64,000 nucleotides of DNA from an uncultured Bacteroidales bacterium (GTDB taxonomy: Bacteria > Bacteroidota > Bacteroidia > Bacteroidales > Paludibacteraceae): NCBI GenBank assembly GCA_946414805.1, contig CAMKPZ010000002.1, positions 238,617 to 302,616 on the forward strand, written 5' to 3'. Every line of letters begins with the position of its first letter. Within the stretch, counting starts at the first letter, position 1. This document shows, one piece after another, positions 1-56,949 of the stretch. The notes under the pieces were generated by a model that was not told the DNA's origin, did not search any database, and saw only the letters and a list, made by a program, of their open reading frames with translations. A program made the translations under genes and the position numbers.

Positions 1-1150
<1,150 letters not shown>

Positions 1151-1618: not shown

Positions 1619-1661
1619 TGCAAATGGTGTGCCAAAGGGTTTTGTCCTGCCAAAATGGCAG
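1619..1661 (-). promoter_or_regulatory. groES promoter: -24/-12 element with upstream 15-bp palindrome
   Basis: On the minus strand the sequence runs CTGCCATTTTGGCAG (1661-1647), 12 bp, TGGCAC (1634-1629), ACCAT, TTGCA (1623-1619). TGGCAC-N5-TTGCA keeps the GG-N10-GC spacing of sigma-54 promoters, and the predicted start is near 1608. The same palindrome with the same 12-bp gap to TGGCAC occurs ahead of htpG (54809-54851). What binds the palindrome is not visible. Its position just upstream of -24 is closer than usual for sigma-54 activators. Confidence 0.7.
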
Positions 1662-54618: not shown

Positions 54619-54683
54619 ATTTGTAAAAATCACGGAATAATATACTATGTATATTATAGGGTAGGGTGGGATACGGGATTGAC
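54619..54683 (-). promoter_or_regulatory. Shared 5'-leader hairpin element, copy 2 (ppdK)
   Basis: On the ppdK strand it starts GTCAATCCCG and ends GTGATTTTTACAAAT, as in the groES copy. The central stem is ATAATATAC/GTATATTAT (54637-54657, 3-nt loop), a different sequence from the groES stem but still paired. It lies between the ppdK promoter (54737-54730) and the ATG, so it is transcribed. Confidence 0.6.
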
Positions 54684-54729
54684 CCGACTTACCCCTTACC
54701 TGCCCCTTATTCAATCCATAATTCGGCTG

Positions 54730-54737
54730 CAAAGTTA
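54730..54737 (-). promoter_or_regulatory. ppdK promoter
   Basis: TAACTTTG followed by CAGCC on the minus strand, 159 bp before the ATG, with A/T-rich sequence upstream. Confidence 0.72.
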
Positions 54738-54808
54738 CAAAAAATTATTCATATATACAAATTTTAGTGCGATTTTTTTATAATAGTGTCTATTTCGAGG
54801 GAAGGAGA

Positions 54809-54851
54809 CTGCCAAAATGGCAGGCGAGGAGGTGTTGGCACGGGATTTGAA
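54809..54851 (+). promoter_or_regulatory. htpG promoter: palindrome plus -24/-12-like element
   Basis: CTGCCAAAATGGCAG (54809-54823), 12 bp, TGGCAC (54836-54841), GGGAT, TTGAA (54847-54851). The arrangement and spacing equal those ahead of groES, but the -12 GC is GA here. The predicted start is near 54863, directly at the CTAGG array. No TAnnTTTG box was seen between here and htpG. Confidence 0.62.
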
Positions 54852-54860
54852 GGAAAAGAG

Positions 54861-54955
54861 AGGAGGCTAGGAGAACTAGGCGGCCTAGGGGGACTAGGGG
54901 AACTAGGAAACCTAGGGCGGATAGGAGACCTAGGAGACCTAGGAAACTAGGAAGA
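54861..54955 (+). repeat. CTAGG-rich array in the htpG leader
   Basis: Nine CTAGG words in 95 bp, mostly in degenerate 9-11 bp steps such as GGAGACCTAGG and GGGGAACTAGG. One unit has ATAGG instead. The array fills the leader between the proposed start site and the htpG ATG. Confidence 0.88.
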
Positions 54956-54993
54956 ATGGGATTTTGGAAAAAACAAACAAAAACAAAAATACT

Positions 54994-56949
54994 ATGAGTA
55001 AAGGTAATATTGGGGTGACGAGTGAAAACATCTTCCCCGTGATTAAGAAATTTTTGTATTCGGATCATGAGATCTTCCTTCGCGAGTTGATCTCCAATGC
55101 CGTAGATGCGACCCAGAAACTGAAGGTGATCAGCCGTCAGCCGTCGGCAGCCAACATTCCGATGGATGACTTGCGCGTACGCGTAAGTATCAATAAGGAG
55201 AAAAAGACTCTGACGGTAAGCGACCACGGAATAGGCATGACCGCAGAAGAGGTTGACCGATATATCAACCAGATTGCATTCTCCGGCGCCGAAGAGTTCG
55301 TGAACAAATACAAAGACAAGACCGAAGCTATCATCGGCCATTTCGGACTGGGATTCTATTCCGCATTCATGGTAAGCAAGAAAGTGGAGATCTTCTCTCT
55401 GTCTTATCAGGAAGGTGCGAAGGCGGTTCACTGGAGCTGCGAAGGCGATCCGGAATACACGATGGAGGAGACCATCAAAGCAGAACGCGGAACAGATGTT
55501 GTGCTGCATATCGACGATGAGTTCAGCCAGTATCTGGAGGATGCGACGATCGAAGGACTGCTGAAGAAATACTGCAAGTTCCTGCCGGTGGAGATCGCTT
55601 TCGGCAAGAAGAAAGAATGGAAAGACGGCAAGCAGGTAGAGACCGAAGAGGAGAATATCATCAATGATACGACTCCCGCCTGGACACGCAAGCCGGCGGA
55701 TCTGAAAGACGAGGACTACGACAAGTTCTACCACGAGCTCTATCCGACCCAGATGGACGAACCGCTGTTCCATATCCATCTGAATGTCGATTACCCGTTC
55801 AACCTGACGGGAATCCTGTATTTCCCGAAGATCAAGAGCAATCTGGATGTACACCGCAACAAGATCCAACTCTATTGCAACCAGGTGTACGTGACGGACG
55901 AAGTGGAGAATATCGTGCCGGAATACCTGACGCTTCTGCACGGCGTGATCGACAGTCCGGATATTCCGCTGAACGTGAGCCGCAGTTACCTGCAGAGCGA
56001 TAACAACGTGAAGAAAATCAGCGGTTATATCACCAAGAAAGTAGCGGACAAGTTAGCCGAGATGTTCAAAAACGACCGCGAGAACTTCGAGAAGAAATGG
56101 GACGACATAAAGATGTTTATCCAGTTCGGCATGCTGACGGACGAGAAATTCTATGAGAAAGCGGTTACGTTCGCCCTTCTGAAGAATATCGAAGGCAAGT
56201 ATTTCACGCTCGACGAATACAAAGAGAAAGTGAAAGAGGCACAGACCGACAAAGACGGCAATCTGGTGCTGCTCTACACACAGGACACGGACGCCAACTA
56301 CACCTATATCGAACGCGCCAAAACCAAAGGTTACGATGTGCTGCTGATGGACGGTGAGCTGGATGTACACTCGATGAGCCAGTTTGAACAGAAAGCCGGC
56401 GACGAAGGCAAACTGCGTTTCGTACGCGTGGACAGCGACACGATCGAGAACCTGATCCGGAAAGAAGACCAGGCGAAAGATAACTATTCCGACGAGCAGA
56501 AAGAAGGTCTCCGCAAGGCTTTCGAAGCTCTGATCCCGCAAGGCGAGAAACTGAAATATTATGTTTCCTGCGAAGCGGCAGCGGCAGACGCTCTGCCTGT
56601 CTTCCTGACGCAGAACGAGTTCATGCGCCGAATGAAAGAGATGAGCGCACACCAGCAGGGAATGAGTTTCTACGGTCAGATGCCGGACAGCTACAATCTG
56701 GTGCTGAACACCGCCCATCCGCTGATCCAAGACCTGGTAGCGAAGATGACAAGCGAAGAGGTGCAGGAAGAAGTGGAGAAGAAAGACGGCGAAGAGACCA
56801 AAAAAGAGACCGTCGTTAAAACGGTCTATTCTCTGAGCGGCGAGGATGAGAAACTGAAACAACTCATCGACATCGCGCTGTTAGCTTCGGGCCAGCTGAA
56901 AGGCGAAGCACTCGCCAAATTCGTTAACCGGAGCGTGGAACTGCTGTAA
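54994..56949 (+). CDS. htpG: Molecular chaperone HtpG (Hsp90)
   Basis: The 651-residue Hsp90-family ATPase chaperone. The N-terminal GHKL fold shows ELISNAVDATQK (Asn 35, Asp 38), DHGIGM and GHFGLGFYSAFM. The middle domain has the conserved LNVSRSYLQSDNNVKKI stretch, and the C-terminal dimerisation part is complete. ATG 54994 (MSKGNIGVTSENIFP) matches the family start; a TTG 30 bp upstream is unlikely. It is divergent from ppdK, with a proposed stress promoter at 54809. The convergent aminopeptidase gene ends 3 bp after its stop. Confidence 0.98.
   Translation: MSKGNIGVTSENIFPVIKKFLYSDHEIFLRELISNAVDATQKLKVISRQPSAANIPMDDLRVRVSINKEKKTLTVSDHGIGMTAEEVDRYINQIAFSGAEEFVNKYKDKTEAIIGHFGLGFYSAFMVSKKVEIFSLSYQEGAKAVHWSCEGDPEYTMEETIKAERGTDVVLHIDDEFSQYLEDATIEGLLKKYCKFLPVEIAFGKKKEWKDGKQVETEEENIINDTTPAWTRKPADLKDEDYDKFYHELYPTQMDEPLFHIHLNVDYPFNLTGILYFPKIKSNLDVHRNKIQLYCNQVYVTDEVENIVPEYLTLLHGVIDSPDIPLNVSRSYLQSDNNVKKISGYITKKVADKLAEMFKNDRENFEKKWDDIKMFIQFGMLTDEKFYEKAVTFALLKNIEGKYFTLDEYKEKVKEAQTDKDGNLVLLYTQDTDANYTYIERAKTKGYDVLLMDGELDVHSMSQFEQKAGDEGKLRFVRVDSDTIENLIRKEDQAKDNYSDEQKEGLRKAFEALIPQGEKLKYYVSCEAAAADALPVFLTQNEFMRRMKEMSAHQQGMSFYGQMPDSYNLVLNTAHPLIQDLVAKMTSEEVQEEVEKKDGEETKKETVVKTVYSLSGEDEKLKQLIDIALLASGQLKGEALAKFVNRSVELL

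Follow-up and report, generated by a model that had tools for sequence, protein, structure and literature searches.

A predicted palindromic operator in helical phase with sigma-54-like chaperone promoters of Bacteroidales, and a candidate sensorless activator

Heat-shock control by HrcA/CIRCE and by sigma-32 acts on the same output genes as those considered here. Sigma-54 enhancer-binding proteins usually bind 80–150 bp upstream, and among them PspF is known for negative autoregulation. A sigma-54 route to the chaperone genes has been described in Flavobacterium psychrophilum, where sigma-54 (SM4) starts have been mapped before GroESL, Lon, DnaK, GrpE-DnaJ, HtpG and ClpB; the strongest induction was on blood agar, heat goes unmentioned in the text available to us, and the three PF00158 proteins named there are not assigned to promoters (PMC9723704). 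Moreover, a promoter scan predicts sigma-54 control of GroEL, GroES, GrpE, DnaK, DnaJ, IbpA, HSP90 and ATP-dependent proteases in Bacteroidota and Planctomycetota, and Bacteroides thetaiotaomicron GroES and GrpE are stated to be sigma-54-dependent; the available part of that work mentions neither a palindrome nor a bEBP (PMC12316311). In Chlamydia trachomatis the chaperone operon hrcA-grpE-dnaK is likewise preceded by a sigma-54 promoter, but that system differs from the present one in its tandem sigma-66 promoter, its HrcA control and its two-component sigma-54 activator, AtoC, as far as the accessible text describes it (PMC8762339). The locus described here shares its targets and -24/-12 promoters with SM4 of F. 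psychrophilum, to which we add a candidate activator and a predicted operator with its phasing; the accessible text on SM4 does not mention the palindrome (PMC9723704). Which protein activates the sigma-54 chaperone promoters of the Bacteroidota, a dominant gut phylum, is a question to which we found no answer in the literature searched, and no paper on an operator, phasing or activator for them was found in the open-licence literature. The sigma-54 chaperone regulon is therefore already in print, whereas the operator, the phase rule and the activator assignment appear to be new.

The sequence under study is a 64-kb window, the whole stretch of DNA analysed (G000:C2:238617-302616), from a 2.2-Mb assembly of 24 contigs that is 95.6% complete. 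The composite CTGCCA-N3-TGGCAG-N12-TGGCAC-N5-TTG has two exact copies in it, on the minus strand at 1661-1621 before groES and on the plus strand at 54809-54849 before htpG (Table 1), against 3.3e-8 exact matches expected from base composition. The identical layout and exact spacing that the first-pass annotation had reported for the two genes are thus confirmed. Taken singly and with mismatches, each half is near background: the palindrome at up to 2 mismatches occurs 7 times in the window against a shuffled mean of 2.3 (2 copies being exact), and the -24/-12 word, when a single mismatch is tolerated, occurs 17 times against 13.4. It is the combination of the two that is rare. Both sites have GG at -24 within TGGCA, and the earlier description of the -12 bases, GC ten bases after GG at groES and GA at htpG, was accurate. 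So was the statement that neither gene has a clear TAnnTTTG promoter, since no such word occurs in the upstream stretches scanned (1474-1800 for groES, 54661-54993 for htpG). The predicted starts in Table 1 are taken from sigma-54 geometry.

Table 1. Features of the two chaperone loci and of the candidate activator gene; positions are those of the window unless a contig is named.
Feature	Position	Strand	Remarks
groEL, 5′ part, cut by window end	1..1138	-	Pfam PF00118, E 7.3e-44
groES, 91 aa	1198..1473	-	Pfam PF00166 Cpn10, E 2.1e-31
groES sigma-54-like -24/-12 element TGGCACACCATTTGC	1620..1634	-	GG-N10-GC; 12 bp from operator; predicted start ~1608
groES palindromic operator (predicted), CTGCCA-TTT-TGGCAG on minus strand	1647..1661	.	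exact match; composite conserved in genus; centre ~-46
htpG palindromic operator (predicted), CTGCCA-AAA-TGGCAG	54809..54823	.	exact match
htpG sigma-54-like -24/-12 element TGGCACGGGATTTGA	54836..54850	+	GG-N10-GA; 12 bp from operator; predicted start ~54862
htpG, 651 aa, Hsp90	54994..56949	+	Pfam PF00183, E 2.1e-51
Candidate sigma-54 enhancer-binding protein, 389 aa	G000:C11:21576-22742, outside window		PF00158 + Fis-type HTH, no sensor domain

Two further features lie close to these elements. A 22-bp tandem repeat, GGCGGAATAACCGGAACAGTCA, is present in 2.7 copies at 1699-1758, a short way upstream of the groES operator. Clusters of at least three CTAGG/CCTAG words occur at only two places in the window, in the groES-groEL gap (1155-1192) and in the htpG leader (54867-54947); such leaders are seen at 6 of 147 composite sites of the genus and look sporadic.

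Elsewhere in the same genome the palindrome stands at spacer 12 before a Clp ATPase gene and grpE (then dnaJ), as it does before groES and htpG, at spacer 22 before dnaK and at spacer 21 before lon, and an Hsp20 gene has a TGGCAG half-site at 12. The presence of rpoN, which the first-pass annotation had left to be checked, was established (PF04552, E 1.2e-52). No match to HrcA (PF01628) was found in this 95.6% complete genome, although the same profile matches 7 of 14 control genomes, and HrcA/CIRCE control was rejected on this ground. The absence of an HrcA match and the sigma-54-like promoter would set the system apart from control by HrcA/CIRCE and by sigma-32. TTGGCAY-N5-TTG has 33 copies genome-wide against 10 for a reversed control. 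Sigma-54-like boxes of this form without a half-site are found at L476, L477, L492 and L497, ahead of a DegP-like protease, a protein with weak, below-cut-off TPR matches and two proteins without a Pfam match. These boxes, along with the separate co-expression clusters described for F. psychrophilum in the accessible text (PMC9723704), suggest a possible second sigma-54 arm.

When the spacing was allowed to vary, the composite was found in 96 of 101 genomes of the genus, against 0 for a reversed-pattern control. The next gene at 147 distinct sites, gathered by sequence alone, encodes Clp (38), GroES (28), DnaK (25), HtpG (22), GrpE (20) or Lon (6) in 139 cases. Among the remaining eight, one site lies before lon (further downstream) and one before hsp20, giving 141 in total; two could not be assigned for want of flanking sequence, and the last four are followed by a SMODS protein, a putative porin, a small frame with an HNH frame behind it, and a LytTR regulator. 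Of the listed matches whose spacer is not 12, numbering 83, the set includes 74 and leaves out 9; it also omits many spacer-12 matches, so that its spacing proportions are not frequencies. With up to 2 mismatches, a chaperone, Clp or Lon gene follows 71 of 97 sites; 6 of the 26 others are in other genera. The single stress regulon proposed from two loci, for which enrichment before dnaK, clp, lon and grpE was the test, is supported in six gene families, and the first observation is real, conserved and broader than the window.

The bases at -12 in the 139 assigned sites are GT (67), GA (59), GC (10) and GG (3). GA at -12, correctly noted before htpG, is accordingly nothing unusual, and was rejected as a peculiarity of that gene. 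GG at -24 is built into the genus sites, as TGG was part of the search pattern. Exact composite sites also stand before two non-chaperone genes, the SMODS (nucleotide second-messenger synthetase) gene at L133 and the LytTR-domain regulator at L210, which are possible additional members of the regulon.

The spacer between palindrome and promoter is far from free. The search within the genus allowed 31 lengths, and the 150 matches listed, out of a larger total, use 10 of them: 11–13 (103 matches), 21–24 (31) and 32–34 (16), with none other. Candidate operator centres thus fall at about -46, -56 and -66, and the earlier remark that the palindrome is unusually close to -24 is upheld. Orthologous promoters differ in turn class, DnaK having 11, 22 and 32–33 and GroES 12–13, 21–22 and 32–34. 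On quick gene trees the fewest turn-class changes were 6 for DnaK, 4 for Clp, 3 for HtpG and 5 for GroES (the GroES trees being built on 91 residues), or at least 18 over the four trees. This distribution implies that insertions or deletions of about a full turn are kept and others are not, and these whole-turn shifts are the strongest sign that the factor bound to the palindrome must face the promoter.

Beyond the genus the perfect palindrome gives way to half-sites and broken palindromes. Only 12 of 295 genomes of the order contain the exact composite, two of them from this genus, and the perfect palindrome was therefore rejected as an order-wide feature. Outside the genus there are 11 exact matches, of which six stand before Clp, DnaK, GroES or Hsp20-like genes (the Hsp20 of L251 by Pfam); the other five have no such gene downstream (L249, L250, L252, L253, L256). 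For groES, 114 other genera gave a match; we read 69 of them and found the start in 67. A sigma-54-like box precedes the gene in 49 of these 67 upstreams, 44 found by a first rule and 5 by a relaxed rule made after looking, and 18 have none. TGKCAG occurs 64 times in the 49 boxed upstreams against a shuffled mean of 3.6, and 50 of the copies, in 34 of the 49 genomes (15 have none), lie within 100 bp. The best period of these 50 copies is 10.38 bp (R 0.63), a value that none of 2000 random sets reached; most control hexamers were too rare for comparison, and TTTTYA gave R 0.35 on 17 sites.

The dnaK promoters were examined with the period fixed beforehand on groES. All 29 loci, drawn from 108 other genera with a match, have a sigma-54-like box. 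Eleven TGKCAG copies in 9 of the 29 promoters share the groES phase (0.23 against 0.11 bp modulo 10.4, p 0.004), and 27 CTGMCA arms in 17 of the 29 have a phase of 1.1 after the 9-bp palindrome shift (p 2e-5), although the arms were added after viewing the dnaK listing, so that this second test was not blind, and the Rayleigh p values treat related genera as independent. The phase of the composite in the genus is 1.4. TGKCAG is missing from 20 of the 29 promoters, and both arms from 7. Of 10 groES promoters read from other orders of the class, 8 have exactly 11 bp between the end of TGTCAG and TGGCA, the exceptions being L448 and L462; the gap was worked out by hand from positions or sequence for L451, L455 and L464. 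A separate arrangement was observed upstream of groES in another group of Bacteroidales genera, namely a TGTCAG-A(A/T)-TG(T/G)CA cluster, closely followed by a (C/A)TGACA arm and often then by a T run (L370, L372, L373, L375, L378, L379, L382, L386, L400, L403, L405, L410). This cluster could be an operator and an upstream terminator at once.

We sought a protein that might bind these sites. Five PF00158 matches exist in the genome, two of them strong, and of these two only the protein on contig C11 also has an HTH match. Its AAA+ sigma-54 domain (residues 15-181, E 1.9e-66) begins at residue 15, with no receiver or other N-terminal domain ahead of it, and is followed by a lid that reaches residue 267, a linker some 80 residues long and a Fis-type HTH (PF02954) at 347-387; solved relatives among PDB matches include NtrC-family proteins, FleQ, ZraR and PspF. 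The second strong match is an NtrC-like response regulator (L060:1572-2732, G000:C2, minus strand) whose 386-aa frame holds a receiver and AAA+ domain and no HTH match, and which may act without specific DNA binding. An orthologue of the C11 protein is present in 58 of 61 relatives (E<=2.5e-111), and 190 of 198 genomes from across the phylum contain a match at E<=1e-80. The closest named proteins (at most 86% identity) come from MAGs of uncultured Bacteroidales and Paludibacteraceae, for many of which a ruminant host is given.

The C11 gene itself has a variant of the palindrome, ATGACATTTTGTCAG, whose first base lies 22 bp upstream of the ATG. Among the 65 named activator loci read, the palindrome, with at most 1 mismatch, was found no further than 300 bp from the start in 38. 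There it usually follows directly on a TAnnTTTG word, which places it over the expected transcription start; in the other 27 loci it is more diverged or absent. In 14 of 20 stretches taken from other orders, the activator gene has groEL a few kb downstream, and in 7 of 24 genomes of other families groES lies no more than 4 kb from the activator gene; in the present genome activator and groESL are on different contigs. The linkage in other orders has a parallel in F. psychrophilum, where, by the locus tags in the accessible text, a probable sigma-54 regulator and LptE (0733-0732) sit close to groESL (0729-0728) (PMC9723704).

The sigma-54-contacting loop of the C11 protein reads GAFTDA, as it mostly does among the genus activators read, with GAFTGA in L091 and L097-L099 and also in Bacteroides/Phocaeicola (L342-L345). 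Orthologues from other orders have GAFTGA or GSFTGA in 18 of 19 cases, L466 having GAFTNA. GAFTDA is listed among the GAFTGA variants said to keep activity, in the part of the source available (PMC4641369). As a cause of the short-range geometry GAFTDA is unsupported, given that G005, G011, G020 and G028 have GAFTGA and composite sites as well. The candidate is like PspF-type proteins in combining an AAA+ sigma-54 domain with a Fis HTH and no sensor domain, and in its predicted negative autoregulation, and is unlike them in its predicted site near -24 in fixed helical phase, in GAFTDA for GAFTGA and in its putative cytosolic chaperone targets. The first-pass annotation had suspected a new regulator; no paper was found that links this candidate to chaperone genes, but it belongs to a known protein family.

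We consider it probable that a sensorless sigma-54 enhancer-binding protein binds the palindrome, drives RpoN-dependent chaperone transcription from one DNA face and limits its own level. The 389-aa C11 protein would bind TGKCAG half-sites near -46, -56 or -66 that share a DNA face with the -24 element, and contact sigma-54 at short range, and its binding would activate RpoN-dependent groESL, htpG, clp, grpE-dnaJ, dnaK, lon and hsp20. Since, across much of the genus, the palindrome covers the expected sigma-A start of the activator's own gene, the activator should limit its own level, and when abundant would repress its own sigma-A promoter. Because the protein has no sensor domain, we guess that stress controls it in trans, for example through free chaperones. 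Sequence comparison shows the regulon and how it is conserved, the phasing, the presence of the palindrome at the promoter of the activator gene and, in other families and orders, the activator-groESL linkage. Our confidence is lowered by the three relatives without an orthologue (G010 and G012, with only a paralogue, and G031, with no match; drafts 68, 92 and 84% complete), all of which have composite sites, and by the one site that precedes another kind of regulator (LytTR, L210). The blood-agar induction in F. psychrophilum, with heat unmentioned, also counts against it.

It is unlikely, though deserving of weight, that another DNA-binding protein, a repressor or an accessory activator, occupies the palindrome while the enhancer-binding protein acts without it. 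Such a protein would account for sites nearer to -24 than is usual for an enhancer-binding protein (the genus sites do not occupy the 80–150 bp position, which is customary rather than defining, and this tells against the activator as their ligand), for the 27 of 65 activator genes without the palindrome and for the composite sites of G010, G012 and G031. However, a simple repressor has no need of turn-by-turn phasing, the palindrome reappears at the start of the activator gene itself, other orders show that gene linked to groESL, and just one of the 147 sites precedes a different kind of regulator. We regard as very improbable the idea that TGKCAG is an extended promoter element touched by the RpoN holoenzyme itself and no activator site at all; the constant 11-bp gap in 8 of 10 groES promoters of other orders would fit it, but the same genes have sites one and two turns further out, and the same genome has sigma-54-like boxes without the element. 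That the promoters are of a different class (ECF, or activator-assisted sigma-A) and resemble sigma-54 by chance, a class difference the first-pass annotation had also raised, is scarcely credible and was rejected as a new class: most members lack the C at -12 (10 of 139 have GC), but sigma-54-like boxes recur before groES (49 of 67) and dnaK (29 of 29) in other genera, and the mapped starts of F. psychrophilum put the same genes under sigma-54 in the text accessible to us (PMC9723704). On account of those mapped starts we file the promoters under sigma-54, and by their sequence they look like sigma-54 promoters and not a new class.

In summary, the analysis yields a candidate activator gene, a short predicted operator, a gene list and sharp predictions, among them that half-turn insertions should abolish activity and full-turn insertions should not. 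The whole-turn shifts between orthologues can also serve as a natural experiment on the orientation that an enhancer-binding protein needs towards its promoter. More tentatively, and with the balance still tilted against so general a claim, we hypothesise that the heat-shock-type chaperone regulon of the Bacteroidota may be run by a single sensorless, short-range sigma-54 activator, fixed to a single face of the DNA, one, two or three turns away from -24, and held in check by its own chaperones and its own operator. It would then constitute a homeostatic switch distinct from those of sigma-32 and HrcA.
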